A stretch of DNA of 64,000 nt, taken from NCBI RefSeq assembly GCF_009660225.1, contig NZ_CP045920.1:3236079-3300078 (forward strand). Direction: 5' to 3'. The notes under the pieces were generated by a model. That model worked only from the letters and a program-made list of their open reading frames with translations, was not told the origin of the DNA and searched no databases. The first letter of the stretch is position 1. Each line of letters starts with the position of its first letter. Source of the stretch: Pseudactinotalea sp. HY158 (lineage in GTDB: Bacteria; Actinomycetota; Actinomycetes; Actinomycetales; Beutenbergiaceae). A program made the translations under genes and the position numbers. Positions 6,778 through 57,360 of this stretch are shown here, piece after piece.

Positions 6778-8292
6778 GTGGCGGACTACGTCCTAGCAAT
6801 CGACCAGGGCACGACCTCCTCTCGTGCCATCATCTTCAATCACTCCGGCCAGATCGTCGAGACCGGCCAGATCGAACACGAACAGATCCTTCCCAAGGCC
6901 GGCTGGGTCGAACACGACCCGATGGAGATCTGGCGGAATGTCCGTGAGGTCACCGGCCTGGCACTGACCCGCGCCAACCTCACCGCCCGCGACCTCGCGG
7001 CGGTCGGGATCACGAACCAGCGGGAGACGGCGGTGGTCTGGGACAGGACCACCGGCGAGCCCGTGTACAACGCCATCGTCTGGCAGGACACCCGCACCCA
7101 GAAGATCGTCGAGGAGCTCGGCGGCGACGCGGGTGCCGAGAAGTACAAAGCCACGGTCGGGCTGCCGCTGGCCACGTACTTCTCCGGCCCGAAGGTCAAG
7201 TGGATCCTCGACAACGTCGAGGGCGCCCGCGCCAAGGCGGAGGCCGGCGACCTCCTGTTCGGCAACACCGACACGTGGACCCTGTGGAACATGACGGGCG
7301 GGGTCGACGGCGGCGTCCACGTGACCGACGTGACGAACGCCTCCCGGACCATGCTCATGGATCTGGACACCCTGGCATGGGACTCCTCGATCGCGGCGGA
7401 CATGGGCATCCCGATGTCCATGCTTCCCGAGATCCGCTCCTCCTCGGAGGTCTACGGCGAGGGCCGCCAGGGCGGCATGGTCCCGGGGGTCCCCATCGCC
7501 GGCATTCTCGGCGACCAGCAGGCCGCGACCTTCGGGCAGGCGTGCTTCGAGATCGGGATGGCGAAGAACACCTACGGCACCGGCAACTTCATGCTCATCA
7601 ACACCGGTACCGAGAAGATCCCGAGCGAGAACGGCCTGCTCACCACGGTCTGCTACAAGATCGGCGATCAGAAGCCCGTCTACGCGCTCGAGGGATCGAT
7701 CGCCGTGACCGGCTCGCTCGTGCAGTGGCTGCGTGACAACCTGGGCCTCATCACGGACGCACCGCAGGTGGAGGATCTGGCCACGACGGTCGAGGACAAC
7801 GGCGGGGCCTACTTCGTGCCCGCATTCTCCGGCTTGTTCGCGCCGTACTGGCGCGCGGACGCCCGCGGCGCGCTCGTGGGCCTGACGAGGTACGTGAACA
7901 AGGGCCACATCGCCCGGGCCGTGCTCGAGGCGACCGCCTTCCAGACCCGAGAGGTGCTCGATGCGATGAACGCCGATTCCGGCGTCGAGCTGAGCAGCCT
8001 CAAGGTGGACGGCGGGATGATCGCCAACGAGACCCTCATGCAGTTCCAGGCCGACATCCTCGGCGTTCCCGTGGTGCGGCCCGAGGTGGCCGAGACGACG
8101 GCGCTCGGCGCAGCGTACGCGGCCGGGATCGCCGTCGGCTTCTGGAACGGCGAGCAGGACGTCATCGACAACTGGGCCGAGGGTAAGCGCTGGGAGCCGC
8201 GGATGGAGGAGGCCGAGCGCGAGCGCCTCTACCGCAACTGGAAGAAGGCCGTGACGAAGACCTTCGACTGGGTCGACGACGACGTGAGCTGA
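6778..8292 (+). CDS. glpK: Glycerol kinase
   Basis: GlpK phosphorylates glycerol with ATP to give glycerol-3-phosphate, the GlpD substrate. The length of 504 residues from the GTG at 6778 is typical. A GAAAGG ribosome site precedes it by seven bases. Signatures are [11 protein letters not shown] at the N-terminus, [23 protein letters not shown], the [13 protein letters not shown] block and [20 protein letters not shown] near the C-terminus. It is the last gene of the operon, and a strong hairpin follows 33 bp after the stop. Confidence 0.96.
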
Positions 8293-8325
8293 CCCTCCCG
8301 CCCCGACGAGCCCACCCGAACGACC

Positions 8326-8366
8326 GGAGGCCCGGATGCGCCGACCAGAAGCGCATCCGGGCCTCC
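8326..8366. terminator. Bidirectional terminator between glpK and the second MIP gene
   Basis: A perfect 16-bp stem (8326-8341 with 8351-8366) encloses a 9-nt loop between convergent genes. The arms begin GGAGGCCCGG and end CCGGGCCTCC. There is no long T-run, as is usual in high-GC actinobacteria. Position and symmetry suit termination from both sides. Confidence 0.8.
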
Positions 8367-8386
8367 AACGTCGTGACGAGCGCTCC

Positions 8387-9346
8387 TCACTCGTCGTCGT
8401 CGACGACCGGGCGTTCGGCGACCCGGCCGACGGGCGGGCGCTCCTTCGCCCGGCCCATGGCGTGCAGCACGTCGCCGATGAACAGGTCGTAGACGAGGAT
8501 GCCGACGATGCCGCCGATGAGCGGCCCCACGATCGGGATCCAGAAGTAGGTGTCGAACCAGGGTCCGTTCCCGGGGAACGCCAACTCGCCCCAGCCGCCG
8601 AGCCACGCGATGATCCGGGGTCCGAGGTCGCGGGCCGGGTTGATCGCGTACCCGGCGTTCGAGCCGATCGAGATGCCGATCGCGGCCACCGAGAACCCGA
8701 TGATGAGCGGCCCGAGATTGGCCTTGACGGCCTTGTTGCGGATGTCGATCACCGCGGCGATCGCAAGCATGAGCATCGCGGTACCGACGATCTGGTCGAC
8801 GAGCGGGCCCCAGATGCCACCGTGGAAATACGGCGCCGGGAACGTGGAGAAGATCGAGAGCGTCGGGATCGTATGCCCCGTCGCGTTGAAGGTCTCCGAC
8901 TGCTGGTCGAACGTGTTCATCGCGTTGGTGTAGAGGCCGAGCACGATCGCCGCACCGCCGATCGCGCCGAGGGTCTGCGCGATCCAATACGGGATCACGT
9001 GCTTCCAGGGGAACCTGCGGCGGATCGCGAACGCGAGGGTGACCGCAGGGTTGATGTGGGCGCCGCTGACGCCCTGACAGACATAGACGCCGAATGCCAC
9101 CGCGAACGCCCAGCCCCAGACGATGATCAACCAGTCGCCGGAGCCCTGGAAGAAGATCGTCGGCCCGGCCGTGCGGCCCGTACCGGGCAGGCCGACGACG
9201 GCCACCGCCACGGAACCACAACCCAGCAGTACCAGGACTGCTGTTCCTAGGAACTCCGCGAGGCACTTGCCCCAGATCCCTTGATAGAGCCGCGTCCGGC
9301 GGTCCGTCACAAGGAGCGGAGATATCGTTTCTTCAGCCACTGCCAT
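8387..9346 (-). CDS. Second MIP-family channel (aquaporin/aquaglyceroporin)
   Basis: The protein has 319 residues from the ATG at 9346, which follows GAGGAGGT. Both pore loops are present (GAHINPAVT and AINPARDLGPR), the second with the glycerol-type Asp. It is longer than GlpF of the same window. It has an extended loop after the first helix (GLPGTGRTAGPTIFFQGSG), a long third periplasmic loop, and a charged C-terminal tail ending in VVDDDE. The extra loops resemble those of large actinobacterial MIP channels. It is convergent with glpK and has its own upstream region, so it is probably regulated separately. Confidence 0.9.
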   Translation of the reverse strand: MAVAEETISPLLVTDRRTRLYQGIWGKCLAEFLGTAVLVLLGCGSVAVAVVGLPGTGRTAGPTIFFQGSGDWLIIVWGWAFAVAFGVYVCQGVSGAHINPAVTLAFAIRRRFPWKHVIPYWIAQTLGAIGGAAIVLGLYTNAMNTFDQQSETFNATGHTIPTLSIFSTFPAPYFHGGIWGPLVDQIVGTAMLMLAIAAVIDIRNKAVKANLGPLIIGFSVAAIGISIGSNAGYAINPARDLGPRIIAWLGGWGELAFPGNGPWFDTYFWIPIVGPLIGGIVGILVYDLFIGDVLHAMGRAKERPPVGRVAERPVVDDDE

Positions 9347-9442
9347 GCACCTCCTCGATGAGAGTGGTGCTTCAGGTTTACCCCCGCGGCGCGGCGATTG
9401 CACTAGGGAGAGACGAACGGATATTCCGGGTGACCGGACCGC

Positions 9443-9724
9443 TCACCGCGACCTGCGTCGTCCGTGCGCGATGAGCACGACGGCGCCGATGAGACAGGCG
9501 ACCGCGCCGCCGCCGAAGAGCAGGTACTCCCCCGCGGTCATCGTGATCGGGTACGCGGTTCCCGCCGAGGCACGGGCGAACGACCAGAGCCGGTAGCCGA
9601 CGAGTCCGAGCACGATTCCCACCACGAGCAACGTGACGGCCGCGGCATCGCCGCGCCGCGACCTGCGAGGGCGCCCGGGCGACGGGTGCCGCTGGGGGTG
9701 CTGGGGCCGCTGGGGACTGGACAC
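9443..9724 (-). CDS. Small two-segment membrane protein
   Basis: This 93-residue protein starts at GTG 9724, five bases after the kinase stop, so it is likely the last gene of a helicase-kinase-membrane series. The first 30 residues are Pro/Arg/Ser-rich. Two hydrophobic segments follow (AAAVTLLVVGIVLGLVGYRL and YLLFGGGAVACLIGAVVLIA), ending in HGRRRSR. The family is not recognised. Confidence 0.65.
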   Translation of the reverse strand: MSSPQRPQHPQRHPSPGRPRRSRRGDAAAVTLLVVGIVLGLVGYRLWSFARASAGTAYPITMTAGEYLLFGGGAVACLIGAVVLIAHGRRRSR

Positions 9725-9729
9725 GGGAG

Positions 9730-10407
9730 CTATCCTGCCATCCCGCCGCGGGGCCCGCCGCGGGGAGGGCGGGCGCCGAGATCGGCGATCACGCGTTCGG
9801 CGGCGCGCGGCGACACGGCCCGACATCCGAGCCCCACCCAGCGGGCGATGAGCGCGGGTTCGGCACGCCACAGCGCCAGGCCGCGGCGCACGAGGGTGAG
9901 CGGCGGCTTGCGCGACTCCGCGACATCGCGCAGCAACCGGAACCAGAACGTGGCCACGCGCGGGCGGGCGAGGCAGATCGCGTCCGCGAGCAGTTGCTCC
10001 TCCGCGAGGCGGGAGACCAGTTCCGCGGCGAAGATCCCCTCCGCCACGATGATGCGTTCCCCGTCGAGCACGAGCCGGCGCGCCCCGGTGCGCCGGGAGG
10101 TGGGGATGTCGTAGACGGGCAGTTCGACCTCGCCCGTGCGGCAGAGGGTCGCGAGCGCCTCGGCGGCACCGCCGGCGTCCCACGAGGCCGGGTCGTCCCA
10201 GTCGACGATCCCGAATCGGTGCGGCAGGCCCGGGTGGTCCACGTCGAGGTAGAAGTCGTCGAGCGCCACGGTCGGCAGGCCGAGGCGCCGCACGAGCGAG
10301 CTCTTGCCGGAGCCGGACGGGCCGGTGAGCAGCACGATCCGCCTCAGCGGGTGACGACTCCCCTCGGGGAGGGGGAAGAGTGCGGGCCCGCTCGGCATGG
10401 GCGCCAT
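9730..10407 (-). CDS. P-loop kinase related to uridine kinase
   Basis: The protein has 225 residues. A Walker A motif GPSGSGKSS lies near residues 29-37, followed by ALDDFYLDVDHPGLP, the usual substrate-side segment of uridine/pantothenate kinase-like NTPases. FGIVDWDDPASWD and VAEGIFAAELV are also family-like. The substrate is unknown; a nucleoside or other small alcohol is likely. It lies downstream of the helicase gene in the same direction, separated by a 146-bp gap with a hairpin. Confidence 0.8.
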   Translation of the reverse strand: MAPMPSGPALFPLPEGSRHPLRRIVLLTGPSGSGKSSLVRRLGLPTVALDDFYLDVDHPGLPHRFGIVDWDDPASWDAGGAAEALATLCRTGEVELPVYDIPTSRRTGARRLVLDGERIIVAEGIFAAELVSRLAEEQLLADAICLARPRVATFWFRLLRDVAESRKPPLTLVRRGLALWRAEPALIARWVGLGCRAVSPRAAERVIADLGARPPRGGPRGGMAG

Positions 10408-10450
10408 TATGTCCCACCGACGGCGGCAGCCGGCGCGCGGGCCGGAGCAG

Positions 10451-10493
10451 AAAGTTATGGCCCGCGACCAGGACGGGCGCGGACCATAACTTT
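10451..10493. repeat. Inverted repeat with a third half-copy, upstream of the kinase
   Basis: Arms of 16 bp (10451-10466, starting AAAGTTATGG, and 10478-10493, ending CCATAACTTT) match with one mismatch. A third copy of the core, TTATGGTCGCG, is at 10507-10517. It may terminate helicase transcription on the minus strand or be a small dispersed element. The AT-rich tips are unusual for this genome. Confidence 0.6.
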
Positions 10494-10553
10494 AGCCGGA
10501 GTTAATTATGGTCGCGCCCTCCTGGAGGGGCGAGTCACAACCTTCTGGTCGGC

Positions 10554-11897
10554 TCAGCGACTGCGGCTCGGCTGTCCCGACCGGCGGCGCGACTGGTGTC
10601 CGCCGCGGGCCGGACGACTGCCGGACTGCCCCTCGCGCTGCTGGCGCGGGGCGCCCTGCTGCCGCGGCTGCGAGCGGCGGGTCTGCTGGGGCCGCTGCTG
10701 CTGCTGGGCGACCGGCGCGGGCTTGACCTTGGGGGCGACCGGGCCGACGATCGCGCCGACCTGCTCGTCCGTCGGGCGGATCACCTGCGCCTTGATCTTC
10801 GCGGCCCGGGTGAGCGCCGCGACGTCCCGGCGCTGATCGGGCGTGAGGATCGTGACGACGACGCCCCCGGCACCCGCGCGCGCCGTGCGTCCGGACCGGT
10901 GCAGGTATGCCTTGTGCTCGGCCGGCGGGTCGACGTGCACGACGAGGGAGACGTCGTCGACGTGGATGCCCCGGGCGGCGATGTCGGTCGCGACGAGCAC
11001 CCGCGCCTCCCCCGCGCTGAACGCGGCCAGGTTCCGCTGGCGGGCGTTCTGGGAGAGGTTGCCGTGGAGGTCGACGGCGGGGATGCCGTCGGCGGTGAGC
11101 TGGCGGGCCAGCTTCTTGGCCTGGTGCTTCGTGCGGGTGAACAGCAGCGACCGGCCCAGGCCGGAGGCGAGGGTGCGGACGAGGTCGCGCTTCGCGCCGA
11201 CGTCGGGCACCTCGAACAGGTGGTGGGTCATCGCCGACACGGGCGACTCGGCGCTGTCGACCGCGTGGGTGATCGGGTCGTCGAGATAGCGCTTGACGAG
11301 CACGTCGACGCCCCGGTCGAGGGTGGCGGAGAACAGCATGCGCTGGCCGCCGCGGGGGATGCGATCCATGAGCCGGCGCACGACGGGCAGGAACCCGAGG
11401 TCGGCCATGTGGTCGGCCTCGTCGAGGATGGCGATCTCCACCGCCCCGAGGTCGATCTCGCGCTGGCCGAGGAGATCCTCGAGCCGCCCGGGGCAGGCCA
11501 CGACGATGTCGATTCCGCCGCGCAGCGCCTTGACCTGCGACACCTGGCTCACGCCCCCGAAGATCACGGTGTGGCTCAGACCGGCGGCCTTCGCCAGCGG
11601 CTCGATGGTCGCGGCGATCTGGGTCGCCAGCTCCCGGGTGGGGGCGAGCACGAGGCCGCGGGGTCGGGCCGCGCGGGCACGGCCGCCTTCGGTGAGCCGG
11701 GCCACGAGCGGCAGCGAGAACGCGAGGGTCTTGCCCGAGCCGGTGCGGCCGCGGCCGAGCACGTCCCGCCCGTCGAGCGTGTCGGGCAGGGTGGCGGTCT
11801 GGATCGGGAACGGGGAGGTGATACCCGAAGCGGTGAGGGACTTGACGAGCCCTGCGGGCACGCCGAGCTGGGAAAAGTCAGGGGTGTGCGTGGTCAT
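10554..11897 (-). CDS. DEAD-box ATP-dependent RNA helicase
   Basis: This 447-residue protein is built like RhlE-type helicases that remodel structured RNA. In order it has the Q motif (PFPIQ), GRTGSGKT, PTRELA, DEAD, SAT and HRSGRTARAG. The last 70 or so residues are a Gln/Arg/Pro/Ser-rich basic tail, probably an RNA-binding extension. The 292-bp upstream region is shared with the clpC terminator. Confidence 0.93.
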   Translation of the reverse strand: MTTHTPDFSQLGVPAGLVKSLTASGITSPFPIQTATLPDTLDGRDVLGRGRTGSGKTLAFSLPLVARLTEGGRARAARPRGLVLAPTRELATQIAATIEPLAKAAGLSHTVIFGGVSQVSQVKALRGGIDIVVACPGRLEDLLGQREIDLGAVEIAILDEADHMADLGFLPVVRRLMDRIPRGGQRMLFSATLDRGVDVLVKRYLDDPITHAVDSAESPVSAMTHHLFEVPDVGAKRDLVRTLASGLGRSLLFTRTKHQAKKLARQLTADGIPAVDLHGNLSQNARQRNLAAFSAGEARVLVATDIAARGIHVDDVSLVVHVDPPAEHKAYLHRSGRTARAGAGGVVVTILTPDQRRDVAALTRAAKIKAQVIRPTDEQVGAIVGPVAPKVKPAPVAQQQQRPQQTRRSQPRQQGAPRQQREGQSGSRPARGGHQSRRRSGQPSRSR

Positions 11898-12125
11898 GCA
11901 CCGGCCTCTCGAGGACGAAGGTCAGCGCTATGACGTTCACTCAGCTTGGCTGCACTGTGTCGCAGCAGCGAAAAGAGCCGCGATGCCGGGCATCAGCGGT
12001 GCGCTGTCCTCCCAGTGTGCCCCATGGCCGGGGGATCGTGCGCAAAAGGAGGGGAGGATCACCGTACGTCCACCGCATCCGCCACGTCCCCACCCGCGCC
12101 GACCGGGCGCCGTCTACACGCAGAC

Positions 12126-12171
12126 GACGGCCCCCGCACCGCCCCGAGATGGGGCCGATGCGGGGGCCGTC
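12126..12171 (-). terminator. clpC terminator hairpin
   Basis: A perfect 13-bp stem (12126-12138 with 12159-12171) with an inner GCCCC/GGGGC stem lies 19 bp past the clpC stop. The rest of 11898-12189 holds no gene I can support; it should contain the promoter of the helicase gene. Confidence 0.75.
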
Positions 12172-12189
12172 GACTCGGCCGGGTGGGCC

Positions 12190-14712
<2,523 letters not shown>

Positions 14713-49144: not shown

Positions 49145-49217
49145 GGCTCTGTAGCTCAGTTGGTAGAGCGTTCGACTGAAAATCGAAAGGTCACCGGATC
49201 GACGCCGGTCGGAGCCA
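49145..49217 (+). tRNA. tRNA-Phe (anticodon GAA), left attachment site
   Basis: 73 nt. The loop is CTGAAAA and the acceptor GGCTCTG/CGGAGCC. The element with a tyrosine integrase begins directly downstream, the usual att arrangement at a tRNA 3' end. The attR copy would lie beyond the right edge. Confidence 0.95.
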
Positions 49218-49545
49218 CTCCGATGCCCCCGCCTTGGCCCCGAGCCGCGGGGGCTTCGATGTGTCCGGGGGTGACCGGGTGGTTGAAGTCGACCCGAACG
49301 ACGGCGCCGTCGACCAGGGCGCCCGGCGTGAGACCGAGCCGGCCCGCGATGATCGCCAGGTCGTTCAGCGTGAACGGCGTCTGACCGGCCCGCTTCATCG
49401 ACACGTTCGACCGCGAGATCCCCAGCGCCTCGGCCAGGTCGTTGCCAGTCATGCCCGCCCGCGCCATCTCGGCACGCACGTTCGCCGCAACTATGTGGTG
49501 GAACCGCGCCTGGTTGCCGTCGTCTCCGACTTGGTTTGCGTCCAT
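49156..49545 (-). CDS. Xre-family regulator reading into tRNA-Phe
   Basis: The protein has 129 residues. The helix-turn-helix is MTGNDLAEALGISRSNVSMKRAG (residues 32-54). The last 20 or so residues (GVDPVTFRFSVERSTN) are the antisense translation of the tRNA. So the gene's 3' end was likely defined by integration. It is divergent from the integrase and may control excision or lysogeny-like state. Confidence 0.75.
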   Translation of the reverse strand: MDANQVGDDGNQARFHHIVAANVRAEMARAGMTGNDLAEALGISRSNVSMKRAGQTPFTLNDLAIIAGRLGLTPGALVDGAVVRVDFNHPVTPGHIEAPAARGQGGGIGVAPTGVDPVTFRFSVERSTN

Positions 49546-49744
49546 GACCCAACACCATAGTCCGTCAGATCCTGGTAGGCAAGCATTGTGCACTGCTGTC
49601 CAGATATGTACGTTACGGTAGAGGCCATTCGCCCTGTGGACACGCGCCTGTATCCACAGGGAACAGCCCCTCAGTAGCACGCCAGCGCCGCAGATGTGAC
49701 GCTCGGATGCTCAAGGAGCACTGACAAGCAACGAAGGCGGGATC

Positions 49745-50604
49745 ATGACTCACGTCGAGTTGGTACTCGAGACGATTGAGCTGCTTGGCCACTGGGAGCT
49801 AGAGATGACTGCCCGTCGCCTGTCGCCGCGCACCATCAAGGAGCGCGTGCGATTCGTACGCTACCTCGACGCGACCCTCGGGCCCGCAGTCCACCTCACC
49901 GAGGACGAACTACGAGCGTTCCTGGCGGAGTGCTCTCGCACCAAGGCGGCGACGACTCAGTTCACTACCACGTCGTCATACGGATGTGGTTCCAGTGGCT
50001 CCAGCAGCGGCACTTCCGGACGGACGACCCGACGATTAACCTCGGAACACCTCGACTCCCCCGCATGCAACCTCGGCCGGCACTCACGGACCACCTCGAC
50101 GCAGTCCTTCGAGCCGGGAATCTCGAGGTTCAAACGAAGATGAAGGTGCTCCTCGCAGCTCTCCAAGGTATGCGCTGCATCGAGATCGCCCGTCTTCGCG
50201 GCGAGGATGTCGATCTCGCCGCCATGAGGATCCGAATCATCGGCAAGGGCGACACCGACATCACGAACGACCTACACCCGACCGTCGCGGAACATACCCG
50301 TCGCAACGCGAGCTACTTCCCCCGCCGGGGCTGGTGGTTCCCCTCCCCCATTGACCCGTCCAAGCACGTCCTCCCTGCCTCCGTCAGTAAGGTCCTTTCT
50401 GAAGCCTTTCGCCGCGTCGGAGCACCAGTCACAGCACATCAGCTACGCCACTGGACTGCTACGGAACTGATCCGTAAGGACGTGCCCACACGTGTTGTCC
50501 AGAAGATCATGCGCCACTCGTCGATCCAGACAACCGAGGGCTACTCCGCCGTTGCAGACGACACGAGCGCCGCGACACTCAGGCGACTTCCACCCTTATC
50601 GTGA
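49745..50604 (+). pseudogene. Tyrosine-type integrase, frameshifted
   Basis: The first frame (49745-49963) gives the SAM-like N-terminal domain: SPRTIKERVRFVRYLDATLG and LTEDELRAFLAECSRTKAATTQF. A second frame then continues with HYHVVIRMWFQWLQQRHF and the catalytic domain: Arg in GMRCIEIARL, HQLRH, and RHSSIQTTEGYSAV with the Tyr nucleophile. Adding one base near 49962 restores a protein of about 286 residues. All active-site residues are kept, so the break is recent or a sequencing artefact. Confidence 0.85.
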
Positions 50605-50799: not shown

Positions 50800-51432
50800 A
50801 TGGCCCCTACGGCGCACCACTCAGAGGACTGGAACGCACGCAGCTTCGCCCATGGAATGGCGCAAGCCCGTACGACAGTCGAAGACACGGCGCACTTCAT
50901 TGTCAGCGCCAAGAAGCTACCGGACTGGAAGTCCCATCGGCCCGGAGTGGAACTGATCTTTTACTTTGCACTCATTGATTACGAGACGAAGGTGCTCGTG
51001 CATCGCCTCCTGGAATCCCAGGATGACAGATACGTCTGGGAGAAATATTTGGCGCTCCATTTGCACGAAGTGCTAGAATTGGCACCGAAAGCGATTAGTA
51101 CAGCAATTCGGGAGATGACGCAGCCCGGTAGCGCATCCAAGGCGGACCCTGAACTTTACAAGTTGGCCGCCCGGCAATTCCGCGACGATCTCCGACCCAT
51201 TCGGCAAGACAGCGATTTCATGAAGGGTCTAGGGCTGATTCGAAACACAGTTGCAGCACACCACGTTGACAGTAGAAGTGCTTCGATGGAGCCGAGCATT
51301 ACGTGGATGCTCACCGCTACAACGCAGCGAAATCGTGGCGGCACGCCGATGTCGAGTCAGATCCTGGAATATTCGGTGAAGGCTGCGATCGCGGTGCAAA
51401 TCTTTGCGCAGTCGGTCATCAGCGAGAAGTAA
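50800..51432 (+). CDS. Cargo protein with a HEPN-like motif
   Basis: This 210-residue, mainly helical protein has codon use and GC unlike its neighbours, signs of transfer. Residues 148-155 read RNTVAAHH. Arg followed by Asn and a His after five residues fits the HEPN RNase pattern R(N/D/H)x4H. It stands alone next to the integrase, where defence cargo is common. TACGCT at 50788-50793 six bases before the ATG suggests a leaderless transcript. The HEPN assignment rests on the motif and helix content only. Confidence 0.6.
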   Translation: MAPTAHHSEDWNARSFAHGMAQARTTVEDTAHFIVSAKKLPDWKSHRPGVELIFYFALIDYETKVLVHRLLESQDDRYVWEKYLALHLHEVLELAPKAISTAIREMTQPGSASKADPELYKLAARQFRDDLRPIRQDSDFMKGLGLIRNTVAAHHVDSRSASMEPSITWMLTATTQRNRGGTPMSSQILEYSVKAAIAVQIFAQSVISEK

Positions 51433-51671: not shown

Positions 51672-52070
51672 ATGGTGGATGAGGGTTTCGAGAGCGAGGC
51701 GCGCCGGGGGCTGCGGGCCGCGGCCGCGGCGCTGGGTGATGGCCGGTTCGTTCGCGGGCCGGCGGCGCTGTACCGACGGTGGAGTATCACGCGGGATGCG
51801 CAGCAACTGGTCCAACGCCAGGACGGCCTGGTTCGCGATTGTCCGGTCTGCGGCCGGGTGTTTCAGGGCCGGCGGTCGACGGCGATGTACTGCTCGGATC
51901 GGTGCCGGAGTCGGGCACGGCGCCGCCGGCTGCGACCCGCGTTCCCCGAACTGAAATGCCCGGCATGCGGAGCCGAGTTCATGGGGCGCCGGTCGACGGC
52001 ACGGTTTTGTTCTGATCGATGCCGAAACGCGGCCCGGGATGGTCGCTCGGGTTCGGGCGGGCGGGCGTGA
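51672..52070 (+). CDS. Protein with two zinc-ribbon repeats, upstream of the relaxase
   Basis: The protein has 132 residues from ATG 51672; a further upstream start is possible. Two copies of a four-Cys unit are present: CPVCGRVFQGRRSTAMYCSD and CPACGAEFMGRRSTARFCSD, each followed by basic residues. The stop overlaps the relaxase GTG (GTGA at 52067-52070). It may assist origin recognition by the relaxase; this is inference. Confidence 0.75.
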   Translation: MVDEGFESEARRGLRAAAAALGDGRFVRGPAALYRRWSITRDAQQLVQRQDGLVRDCPVCGRVFQGRRSTAMYCSDRCRSRARRRRLRPAFPELKCPACGAEFMGRRSTARFCSDRCRNAARDGRSGSGGRA

Positions 52071-52974
52071 GTATTACGACGCCGCGGACGCCGATCCGCG
52101 CGGGCACGGGGTATGAGTATTTGACACGTTCGGTTGCTGCGGGGGATGGGGACCGGCTCGCGGCGGATGTGTTGACGCGCTATTACGACCAGGCGGGTAC
52201 GCCGCCGGGTCGTTGGCTCGGTTCGGGTCTGGCCGGCCTGGGATCGGCAAATGGTGCCGGCCCGGGTTTGCGTGTGGGTGATCGGGTGAGTGAGGAGCAG
52301 ATGGGCCGGCTTTTCGGAATGGGGCATGACCCGGTCACCGGGGAGGTGTTGTCGCGGACATTCTCGGCGCCGGATGAGTCGGGGTTGTCTCGGTCGCGGG
52401 CCGGTTTCGATCTGACGTTCCAGATTCCGAAGTCAGCCTCGGCGTTGTGGGCGATCGCCGATGCCGGCGTGCAGGCGTTGATCGTGCGGGCTCATCACGA
52501 GGCGATCACCGAGACGCTCGCATTCTTGGAGCGTGAGGTGTTGATGACCCGGGCGGGCCGGGCAGGGGTGGCCCAGTTGGAGACCCGCGGGCTGGTCGCG
52601 GCCGCGTTCGATCATTTCGATTCCCGCGCGGGGGATCCGCATCTGCATACCCATGTCGTGGTCGCGAACCGGGTCCAGGGGGTCGATGGGAAGTGGCGGA
52701 CGCTCGATTCACGGGCGTTGTATCGGGCGGTGGAGGCGCTCTCGCGGACGCATTCGGCGCTGTTCGCGGACCGGCTCGCGCAGATACTGCCGGTGGAATG
52801 GACGATACCGACGGCGCGGAAGCGTGAGCTGGGGGAGGTGGAGATCGCCGGTGTCCCGGCGCAGTTGCGCGAGGTGTTCTCCCAGCGGCGGTTGGCGATC
52901 GTGGCGGCTCGGCAGGACGCGCATGAGGAGTTCGTGCGCGCTCACGGGCGGGCGCCCTCGCAGCGGGAGTCGCG
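52067..52974 (+). pseudogene. MobF relaxase, 5' part, cut by the ISL3 insertion
   Basis: 302 residues of a TraI/TrwC-type relaxase from GTG 52067. A Tyr in YEYLTRSVA is the likely nucleophile. The His triad lies in DPHLHTHVVVANRVQG. Excision of 52975-54425 restores the frame exactly: codon CG + C becomes CGC. The joined product would be about 1280 residues. Confidence 0.9.
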
Positions 52975-54417
52975 GGCTCTACGCGGTTCGTGGTGAAAGG
53001 CCTGCTGTGATTGGTGTTCGCGCTGCTGCTCGAGCGGCGCTGGCCAGGAGTATACGGGCCTTGTAGTTGGCGGAGTTCCTGAATCCGCGGCCGGTGCGTT
53101 TGATGTTCTTGATCGTGGTGTTCGCGGCTTCGACCTTCGCGGTCGTGGCGCCGGTGACGATGAGGACTTCGATGGCCTCCCACCAGGTCACGATGGTCTC
53201 GTAGAGGCGGTCGGTCTCGGCCATGTTCGCGGTCTGGACGTAGTGACCCAGTCTCATCCGCTCTTGCCACGCCTGGGCGAGGGTATCAGCGCCGAGGAGG
53301 CGGCGGAGCTGCTCCTTGACGCCCCACGCGGCGGAGAGCTCATCCGTGGGGTCATCGTCGGTGAAGACCTTCTCCAGTCTGGCCCAGCCACGCGGGGACA
53401 GCGTATCGGCGCCCCGCAGCAGCAGCATCCGGTGTGCCCAGGACGCGTCGCTCTTGCGCCCGCGGCGGCCGTGCTGGTCTCGGGCGAGGCGCTGGCGGAC
53501 CTTGGTGAGCATGTCGCCTGCGAGTTTGACGAGGTGGAACTTGTCGACCGAGACCGCGGCGTGGGGCAGGTGCTCGCGCAGGGCCTTACGGAACGCGGCC
53601 GAGGGGTCGATCGCGACGACCTCGATACGGTCCCGCCATGACTGTGGGCGGGCGCTGAGCCACGCGCCCACGCCCGTGCTGTCGCGGCCATCGACGATGC
53701 CCAGGACCTGTCCTGTGGCCAGGTCGACCAGGGTCGTCATCCACGGCTCGAACCGGCGCCAGGCCCCGTGCTCATCACGGAAGAACCGCACGGACCGGTA
53801 CCGGTGCTCATCGATGCCCAAGCGCGTCACGACCCAGTCGTCGGCGGCGGGTAGGACGAGCGCCGCGGCAGCCAGCGCCGATTGGACCAGCCACCATGAG
53901 ACCCCGTGAGCGCGGGCAACCTCGCTGGCGGCTCGACCGGAGTCGACCACCGCGGCCACGACCTGATTCTTCAGCCGCGTAGTGGACCGGGCGAACCTGG
54001 GGACCTGGATGGTGGACTCGGCGAACGTGCCACGCCCGCACAGCTCTTCCCGGCAGAACCAGCGCCGCTTGGCCCACCACACCTCGACCGCACCCGCGAT
54101 CGGCAGATCACGCAGACGCTGCCGGCGCCGGGAATGGATCTTCACCGCGATCACACCACACGCCGGGCAGCCAGGCGGGGCGAGTGACTCGATCACGACC
54201 CGACGGCCTCCGCCGGGAAGATCGATCGCGTCGATGACACGGTAGTCAGACAGATTGAAGATCGTGCTCGCAGCATCACGCTGCGAGCCAGTAAACTCGT
54301 CCATAGCTCGTGGTCCTCTGCTCTTGTGGATGTCTCGCAACACCCATCACAGCAGGACCACGAGCCCTCACACGCCTACGACGCGCGGGCCACTTTCACC
54401 ACGAACCACGAAGAGCC
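52975..54417. mobile_element. ISL3-family insertion sequence
   Basis: 1443 bp. Inverted repeats start GGCTCTACGCGGTTCGTGG (left) and GGCTCTTCGTGGTTCGTGG (right, reversed). An 8-bp target duplication GAGTCGCG flanks it (52967-52974 and 54418-54425). One transposase gene is carried on the minus strand. Confidence 0.95.
52979..54304 (-). CDS. ISL3-family transposase
   Basis: The protein has 441 residues from ATG 54304. N-terminal zinc finger CPAC and CREELCG. Transposase core residues are in LGIDEHRYRS, AIDPSAAFRKAL and the C-terminal ANTTIKNIKRTGRGFRN. The stop lies inside the left inverted repeat. Confidence 0.95.
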   Translation of the reverse strand: MDEFTGSQRDAASTIFNLSDYRVIDAIDLPGGGRRVVIESLAPPGCPACGVIAVKIHSRRRQRLRDLPIAGAVEVWWAKRRWFCREELCGRGTFAESTIQVPRFARSTTRLKNQVVAAVVDSGRAASEVARAHGVSWWLVQSALAAAALVLPAADDWVVTRLGIDEHRYRSVRFFRDEHGAWRRFEPWMTTLVDLATGQVLGIVDGRDSTGVGAWLSARPQSWRDRIEVVAIDPSAAFRKALREHLPHAAVSVDKFHLVKLAGDMLTKVRQRLARDQHGRRGRKSDASWAHRMLLLRGADTLSPRGWARLEKVFTDDDPTDELSAAWGVKEQLRRLLGADTLAQAWQERMRLGHYVQTANMAETDRLYETIVTWWEAIEVLIVTGATTAKVEAANTTIKNIKRTGRGFRNSANYKARILLASAARAAARTPITAGLSPRTA

Positions 54418-57360
54418 GAGTCGCGCCGGCTGGACTATTTGACGTGGGCGGCCACGCGTCCGGCCAAGCACGGCTCGTCGCTGGCGGAGTTGACCCGGGC
54501 GTGGCGCGAGCGGGCGATGACGGTGCTGATCGCGGCGGGTTGGCGGCCGCGCACCGGCACGGGGGTGGACGCGGCCGAGTGGGTCCGCGCACTGCTAGCC
54601 GGCGGGCCGGAGCGGGGTGCGGTGCTGCGCGCGGGCGATATCCCGCGCGCGCAGCTGGCGGTGATGGCGGGACGGGTGGTGGAGGCGGTCTCGGGTCGGC
54701 GGGCGACGTGGTCGCGGTGGAATCTGCATTCGCAGGCGTGTGTGGAGCTGGCCGAGTTCCGGTTCGCGACCGCCGCGGATCGGGAAGAGGTCCTGGGCGA
54801 GGTGGTCGCGGCAGCGGAGCGCGCCTCGGTGGACATCACGGCCCCGCGCCTTGCGCCGGTACCGGCGGGGTTCACGCGTTCGGATGGGTCGAGCGTCTTC
54901 GAGGCCCGGCATGCCGCCCTGTACACCTCGGCCGCGGTCCTGGCCGCGGAGGACTACCTCCTGGCCCGCCTGCACGACCAGACCGGGCCCCGGGCCGCCG
55001 GCCGCATGGATGCCGGCAGCGGGGCCGGCGAGCTGCTGGTCGATGGCGCGGGTCTGGGGGCGGATCAGGTGATGGCGGTGGAGCAGGTCGCCGGTAGTGG
55101 CCGCCCGGTAGATGTGCTCATCGGGCCCGCGGGTGCGGGGAAGACGACCACGCTCGCGGGTCTGCGCCGGCTTTGGGAGGGCGAGCATGGGCCGGGCAGT
55201 GTGGTCGGGTTGGCGCCCTCGGCTGCGACCGCGGCGGTGCTGGGCGCCGAGCTGGGGATCGGCACGGACAATCTGGCCAAGTGGTTGGCCGAGCTCGAGG
55301 CCGCCCCCGCCAAGCGTGCCCGGCTGGCGAGCCTGAGGACTCGCGCCGCCGAGCACGCCGCAGCAGCGGCCGCGGCCGCCGGCGCGATCGCCGCGGTGTC
55401 GGCTGATCTGGCCCGGTGGGAGCTACGGGAGGGCCAGTTGGTCATCGTCGATGAGGCCTCGTTGGCGGGAACGTTCGCGCTCGCCCGGCTCGCCCGGGCG
55501 GGCGAGGTGGCGGGGGCGAAGGTGCTGTTGGTGGGGGATCCGTTGCAGTTGGCGGCGGTGGAGGCCGGTGGCGCGTTCTCGATGGCCGCGCACGCGCTCG
55601 GGGCGGGTGCGCCGCGGCTGCGGACGGTCCACCGGTTCGAAGCGTCCTGGGAGGCGGAGGCCTCGCTGTTGCTGCGGCTGGGCCGGCCCGATGTCGTGGA
55701 CACCTACACCGCCCACGGGCGGGTCCATTCCGGGACCGAGGCGGGCGTGATCGATGAGGCCTACCAGGCCTGGCAGGCGGACCTGGCGGCGGGCCTGTCC
55801 TCGTTGTTGATCGCCGGCGATAACGAGACGGTGACCATGCTCAACCAGCGTGCTCAACGCGAACGGATCGCCGCCGGCACCGTCACCGGTCCGATGCTCC
55901 CCCTGGCGGGCGGGTCGAGCGTGGGGGCCGGGGACGTGATCGTGACCCGCCGGAACGAGCGGGCGTTGCGGGCAGGGGCCGGGTCCTGGGTCAAGAACGG
56001 GGACCGGTGGCACGTCCTGGCGGCGCGCGTGGACGGCTCGCTCCTGGTCCAGCGGGAGGGCGGTGGCCCCCATGTCACCTTGCCGGGGCATTACGTCGCG
56101 GAGCATGTGGAGCTGGGCTATGCCTCGACCGCGCACCGGGCCCAGGGAGTGACCGTGGACACCGCGCACGCGCTCGTGGTCTCGGCGGGGATGGCCCGCG
56201 AGGCCCTCTACGTGGGCATGTCCAGGGGCCGGTGCAGCAATCACGTGTATGTGGCGACGTTGACGATCAGCGACGAGGAACATCACGCCCGCCCCGATGA
56301 CCAACTGACGGCGCGGGAGGTCCTCGAGACGGTCCTACGTTCCAGCGGCGCGGCGGCCTCGGCGCATGAGGCGATCACCACCTCCCAGGAGGCCGCCTCC
56401 TCGATCGGGCACCTGGCCGATGAATACGACCTCATCGCCGCCGCGGCCACCGGCGCCAGGTGGCAGGAGCTGATCGAGGCCGCGCCCCTGAGCCCGGCCC
56501 AGCGCGAGGCCGTCCTCGCCTCCCCGGCATGGGAGGCGCTGTCCGCCTCGCTGCGACGCGCAGCGCGTGCCGGCACCGACCTCGAGCGGGTGCTGCCGGC
56601 GCTGATCACCGGCCGGGAGCTCGACTCCGCGGACGATGTCGCCGCTGTCCTGCATCACCGCCTCGAAGCCTTCCAGGCCAGCGCCCCTGCCCGCCGCGAC
56701 CCCGCTCACCTCGTGGCCGGGTTGTTCCCCGCGGCCGCGCTCACCGGCGAAGGGGAGTTGGATGAGGCCCTGGCCGAGCGGGAACGCTTGATCGAGGCCC
56801 GGGCACGGCACATCGCAGCGAGAGCGCGGGCGGCCGGGCACGCCTGGGCCCAGCACGACGACGCGGCAGCGGTCACCGCAATGGTCACGGTGGCGGCCTA
56901 CCGGGACCGGTGGGCGATCGACCCAGGCGACCCGCGCCCACTGGGCGGCCCGCCCGGGGCCGACTACACCCAACGCGCCGATCACGCCCGCGCCGCCCGC
57001 GCGCTGCGCCGCATCCACGACCACCCCGGCACCGGCCGCGGCCTCCTCCGAAGCCCCAGCGCCCCAGCCCGGGCCCGTCGGTCCGGGTGGCCCGTCCCTG
57101 TGACCCGGCCGAGGGGCGGGGCGCTGGGCGGGGGGCGCGTTCGTGTCGGTCAGGAGCTATCTGGCGTGTGGGAGAGGAACGAAGTCATGGGATTGTCAGT
57201 GATCGAGGCGATTCTGGCTCGCCGGTTATCCACAGGGGCGCAGATCTCTGTGCTGGAGACCGTGGCGGAGGCAGCATTGATCGAGCCCGGCCCGCGCGGG
57301 ATCCGCCTCGATACGGTCCCGCGGATCGTCATCGACCTGGATGGAGAGGACTGGTCATGA
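54418..57360 (+). pseudogene. MobF relaxase/helicase, 3' part
   Basis: It continues from RRLDYLTWAATRPAKHG. A RecD/TraI-type helicase follows with Walker A GPAGAGKTTTLAGL, Walker B VIVDEASLA and motif GDPLQLAAVEAGG; the C-terminal ASTAHRAQGVTVD is the UvrD-type motif. After about 57020 the frame loses protein character, while another frame gives TPAPAAASSEAPAPQPG then a stop at 57101-57103. That suggests a second frameshift. The open frame ends at 57360. Confidence 0.88.
57187..57360 (+). CDS. Small 57-residue protein between relaxase and DUF4192
   Basis: ATG 57187 is preceded by GAGAGGAACG, a good ribosome site. The product begins MGLSVIEAILARRLS and ends DLDGEDWS. It is in the same frame as the relaxase readthrough, but the ribosome site argues for its own translation. 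The stop overlaps the next ATG (ATGA). No family recognised. Confidence 0.5.
   Translation: MGLSVIEAILARRLSTGAQISVLETVAEAALIEPGPRGIRLDTVPRIVIDLDGEDWS

Follow-up and report, generated by a model that had tools for sequence, protein, structure and literature searches.

What does a gene of foreign-looking composition, lying directly beside a tyrosine integrase in the actinobacterium Pseudactinotalea sp. HY158 and encoding a helical protein with a HEPN-like motif, contribute to its carrier? The gene is found in a window (by which we mean the whole stretch of DNA analyzed) of 64,000 nucleotides from contig NZ_CP045920.1, and a preliminary description had proposed it as an AT-rich cargo gene of a mobile element, encoding a HEPN-type RNase and forming a candidate single-gene defense or abortive-infection system. 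The ORF is intact, with an ATG start and 210 codons followed by a stop, and it begins about 200 bp past the end of the integrase ORF; a search of its surroundings gave no sigma-70 promoter or terminator pattern. Its product carries GLIRNTVAAHHVD, in which R148, N149 and H154 are the residues, and at the positions, that had been described. The composition of the gene is indeed alien, at 55.5% GC (0.58/0.43/0.65 at the three codon positions) vs 71-73% in two other genes of the window, galE and LCP, whose third-position GC is 0.94-0.97; it is thus a low-GC gene for its host, but the term AT-rich does not hold in absolute terms.

Table 1. Features of the candidate gene and of the surrounding mobile element (positions in the window).
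Feature	Position	Strand	Remarks
tRNA-Phe gene, possible attachment site only	49145..49218	+	1.6 kb upstream of candidate gene
Cro/C1-type HTH (XRE) regulator ORF	49156..49680	-	3' end overlaps tRNA-Phe gene
ORF with N-terminal SAM-like part of tyrosine integrase	49745..50143	+	weak Pfam match, E=0.0024, below cut-off
Catalytic part of tyrosine integrase	49930..50604	+	E=4e-22
HEPN-type RNase candidate gene	50800..51432	+	210 aa, 55.5% GC
Codons of R148-N149-T-V-A-A-H154, HEPN R-N-x4-H signature	51241..51261	+	R, N and H invariant in 9/9 aligned rows
N-terminal part of TrwC-type conjugative relaxase	52019..52996	+	profile match
ISL3-family transposase ORF, between the two relaxase parts	52979..54343	-	profile match
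ORF with helicase (AAA_30/UvrD_C_2) part of relaxase	54310..57360	+	profile match

The integrase and the relaxase in the window, together with repeats of tRNA ends around two relatives of the gene (see below), support its description as cargo of a mobile element. The integrase looks frameshifted, since its SAM-like and catalytic parts occupy different frames; in alignments with its own relatives, the best of which belong to Rarobacter, a Micrococcales MAG and Cellulomonas, only the catalytic frame is covered. This two-frame integrase and the splitting of the TrwC relaxase by an ISL3 transposase ORF (52019-57360) suggest that the element is decaying. No second copy of the 3' end of the tRNA-Phe gene was found in the window or in the genome, and this tRNA gene is therefore only a possible attachment site. 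A Pfam scan of eight window ORFs, the candidate included, recognized no defense gene beside it and no nucleotidyltransferase.

We compared the candidate protein with Pfam, PADLOC, PHROGs and NCBIfam, none of which gave a useful match; in PADLOC-DB 2.0.0 it had no match at E<=10. The eight full-length members of the family (the window protein and the seven relatives described below) gave only weak and mutually inconsistent matches to PHROGs and NCBIfam, and a CARF model of PADLOC matched two of the eight weakly (best value 0.0043). One profile hit falls on the motif itself: the relative in genome G706 matches PF18734 (HEPN_AbiU2) over this region with E=0.001 and 19.0 bits, vs a gathering threshold of 26.8. 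This match was seen in one of the eight members, being not reported for the other seven, and a search of the window's genome with PF18734 gave nothing at E<=10.

Relatives were found in eight other actinobacterial genomes, seven of them full-length and 21-32% identical to the window protein. An order-level search of 396 genomes returned three besides the genome of origin (E 1e-12 to 1e-15), and a profile search in 319 genomes of one family returned five further relatives besides that of G706 (six in all). Around three of the carriers, searches of 60, 60 and 47 genomes recovered the known carrier only, and among the 24 genomes of the window's own family only the window was found; the family is thus spread in patches. 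The copy in G1457 is divided between two contig ends (L058 12204-12635 and L059 1-393), which implies an insertion or an assembly break inside it. One pair of members from two different families is 89% identical, suggesting transfer.

Broader searches added no member. A phylum search with alignment A1 (396 genomes) returned the genome of the window only, a final order-level search with profile A3 (297 genomes) the window and G577 only, and the same profile run over the ORFs of at least 50 codons of 66 loci, of which 17 belong to integrase relatives, brought no new member (best other E=0.2). When the window protein was used for pattern-based scans, neither genome contigs nor viral contigs yielded a relative; the viral contigs also gave none with alignment A1 or with the single relatives L049, L051 and L052. 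By tblastn, six of the eight full-length members (window, L039, L040, L049, L051, L053) had no match in plasmids and three of the eight (window, L038, L052) none in phages. A class-level search (394 genomes, E<=0.1) produced 28 weak matches besides the genome of origin, 19 of which (L002-L020) were judged unrelated by eye from their ORFs. Among these, L015 and L020 are elongation-factor-like, with an unrelated R-N...H string; L008, L009 and L005 reached E 1e-4 to 7e-4 in a locus-restricted tblastn and none better than 0.4 with profile A3. L002 is also the fifth order-level match (G262, E=0.004), which was discarded along with these class matches.

How much weight can be placed on the motif? 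R-[NDH]-x(3-5)-H appears in 20% of shuffles of the candidate protein and R-N-x4-H in 1.1%; on one sequence the motif is weak evidence, because shuffles often give a similar one, whereas its conservation in nine of nine rows is not weak. The alignment consists of the eight full-length members and the C-terminal piece of the G1457 copy, and no column in it is invariant other than R148, N149 and H154, despite pairwise identities of 16-35% among the full-length members, the 89% pair excepted. Conservation in homologs, a check that the preliminary description had itself proposed, thus came out in favor of these three residues; the adjacent H155 is not conserved. According to PMC3710099, HEPN enzymes have an Rx4-6H catalytic signature in which the residue after the arginine is mostly N, D or H. 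Both features are present here: five residues lie between R148 and H154, and the polar position directly after the arginine is N149 in every row. Many, not all, HEPN families also have an Ex3[KR] motif with an upstream acidic residue; in the present alignment an acidic residue stands at position 62 in 8/8 rows and E, D or Q at position 81, while no clear Ex3[KR] is shared by the rows.

A HEPN fold is expected to be made of helices only and to have its motif where helix-3 ends and the loop to helix-4 begins. The AF2 model built from the eight sequences (pLDDT 78.6, pTM 0.74) consists entirely of helices and places R148-H154 at the end of a helix (138-155), which is followed by a loop and a final helix (187-207). 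The highest ranks in Foldseek and VIA-align went to generic helical bundles (GPCR-like and designed proteins), with no match at E<=0.001 and no displayed row named as a HEPN protein. Comparison with known folds, suggested in the preliminary description, therefore had a divided outcome: the helix layout agrees with HEPN, but the HEPN fold is not proven by structure, since the fold searches returned generic bundles only. Taken together, the invariant R, N and H, the weak HEPN_AbiU2 match of one relative and the helix layout argue for an RNase of HEPN type.

The neighborhoods of the relatives are the only evidence that bears on defense. Genes of defense or toxin-antitoxin type adjoin 7/8 relatives, an uncontrolled count in which only chosen neighbors were scanned with profiles. 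In G577 these are CBASS genes (SMODS cyclase, E1-E2 and JAB-TIR-SAVED); directly upstream of the relative lies a gene whose 376-aa product carries RHGVLHG as a motif, and this gene also precedes the copy in G1255 (L045 8080-9210 and L055 10900-12030). G1255 and G1280 have ABC-3C genes, with CTD10 and DUF2326 in both and MC6 in G1255. The copy in G706 shares 4 bases with the end of a PP2C gene and is next to genes for a VWA protein, an S1-PIN-kinase fusion, an HTH_17 protein and an ApeA-type HEPN protein. A SocA/Panacea antitoxin-type gene is found two genes upstream in G1457, after a tRNA-Arg; a protein kinase resembling MkoA/PD-T4-6 in G1388, where the contig is only 3.2 kb; and a resolvase with a PDC-M58A-like candidate gene in G1371. 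The copy in G719 begins 98 bp after a tRNA-Lys, and no defense gene was noticed among its neighbors, as judged from the ORFs alone.

The 376-aa protein has no Pfam or PADLOC match, and its RHG[IV]xHG (Rx4H) is kept in the four sequences compared (G577 and three plasmid matches); judged by this motif it looks like a member of a second HEPN-type family. Partial matches to it occur in 12 plasmid records from Actinomycetota, Pseudomonadota and Bacillota. Three of the eight relatives (G577, G1255 and G706) thus adjoin another HEPN or HEPN-motif gene, and the label of a single-gene system, as originally given to the locus, is not established. The abortive-infection role proposed along with it remains a suggestion, made by these neighborhoods.

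Counting the window, five of the nine loci are no farther than about 1.6 kb from the 3' side of a tRNA gene. The tRNA 3' end recurs at the far boundary of the element in G706 and G1457; in G719 and G1280 such a repeat was sought and did not turn up. In G1457 the 3' 50 bp of the tRNA-Arg recur just past an integrase-like ORF on the other contig, which may adjoin the first. In G706 a 6.9-kb stretch (L047 about 7785-14690) is flanked on both sides by a perfect 48-bp repeat of the 3' region of tRNA-Ala; the ORFs called in this island encode the HTH_17 protein, the S1-PIN-kinase fusion, the VWA protein, PP2C, the HEPN relative and the ApeA-like HEPN protein, with no integrase among them.

Our preferred reading, to which we give a fairly good probability, is that the candidate protein is a HEPN-superfamily endoribonuclease of a family outside the profile libraries searched, distantly AbiU2-like and carried as cargo of an integrated conjugative element, its most likely role being that of an abortive-infection or growth-arrest effector. 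The window gene is probably a solo member of this uncatalogued ribonuclease family and an effector of the abortive-infection type. By analogy with the characterized HEPN enzymes treated in PMC3710099, the protein would lie latent until activated by infection or some other stress. It would then cleave RNA of the cell or of the phage in a metal-independent way, with H154 as the catalytic residue and R148 and N149 in support, and the cleavage would bring translation and phage production to a halt. At some loci, control may be exerted by the kinase/phosphatase set or by a second HEPN protein. The RNase activity, dimerization, RNA target, trigger and defense role of the protein are all points that we infer.

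A wider proposal, which we hold tentatively and consider rather unlikely, is that the family provides the RNase of a modular actinobacterial defense in which a single HEPN effector is combined with varied controllers on tRNA-targeted islands, the window gene being the solo form. The controller would be a second HEPN protein at some loci, with a possible hetero-HEPN active site, or ABC-3C ATPases at others; another would be a phospho-switch of kinase, PP2C and VWA proteins together with the ApeA-type HEPN protein, on the self-contained tRNA-Ala island of 6.9 kb.

The protein might also be the HEPN toxin of a toxin-antitoxin or element-stabilizing module, which would maintain the element and not stop phages, its antitoxin (a protein, for example the XRE regulator, or an RNA) being unlinked or unrecognized. 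HEPN proteins are described as toxins of toxin-antitoxin modules in PMC3710099, the window element has an XRE regulator and the G1457 copy has its Panacea gene nearby; nevertheless, the eight window ORFs scanned include no nucleotidyltransferase, simple ORF calling around the relatives showed no constant small partner gene, and Rfam at gathering cut-offs gave only tRNAs in seven loci. We regard this module reading as unlikely. The presence of several relatives in or beside multi-gene systems suggests yet another origin, in which the family is part of larger defense complexes (kinase/phosphatase/VWA/ApeA, ABC-3C or paired HEPN proteins) and the copy in the window is what remains of one, orphaned and possibly inactive, on an element in decay, as the two-frame integrase and the interrupted relaxase would allow. 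Against this, the ORF in the window is unbroken and retains the catalytic triad, and a self-sufficient gene suits the data better than a remnant because the partners vary by locus, none having been recognized for the window copy or noticed in G719; we think a remnant quite improbable.

There is very little to recommend a non-catalytic helical protein that binds RNA or a nucleotide and keeps R-N-x4-H for structure, not for catalysis. The fold searches were non-specific, and inactive HEPN versions do act as nucleic-acid binders (PMC3710099); those versions, however, are described there as being without the conserved charged and polar residues, whereas in the present alignment nothing but the catalytic triad is invariant.

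What is new to the HEPN ribonucleases is a family left unnamed by the four profile libraries used. HEPN ribonucleases underlie many abortive-infection systems, to which the present family would be an uncatalogued addition; its mode of action would already be known in kind, that of the HEPN Abi RNases. The relatives in turn point to candidate systems, notably the tRNA-Ala island of G706, and the predicted catalytic residues R148, N149 and H154 are defined by the alignment well enough for a direct mutational test. No title or abstract opening that we found in the literature describes the family or the G706 gene set, which does not prove that such a description is absent.

Among known systems, the HEPN-MNT toxin-antitoxin modules resemble the window locus in having a small HEPN-type protein on a mobile element, and differ from it in their nucleotidyltransferase, of which the scanned window ORFs have none. 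AbiF/AbiD, AbiJ, AbiA-CTD, PrrC, RloC and RNase LS share with the present family the Rx4-6H signature and the mobile and defense settings; the window protein, however, matches none of their Pfam, NCBIfam or PADLOC models and, at 210 aa, has no fused sensor domain. The ApeA-like HEPN family (PF18739) is met next to the G706 relative, where the neighboring protein matches the profile above the cut-off; both proteins have an R-N-type HEPN motif, but the neighbor is 430 aa long, with sequence N-terminal to its HEPN part, and no member of the present family matches PF18739 at E<=0.5. The closest likeness by profile is to AbiU2 (PF18734), a HEPN family in Table 1 of PMC3710099: Rx4-6H is conserved and the G706 relative matches the profile over the motif. 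The best score among the eight members stays under the gathering value, however, and the window protein has no match; since the cut-off is not reached, we did not file the family as AbiU2. Bxe_C0808, another HEPN family, is placed in an operon with AbiU2 in the same source, and this arrangement is paralleled here by the relatives that adjoin a second HEPN or HEPN-motif gene.
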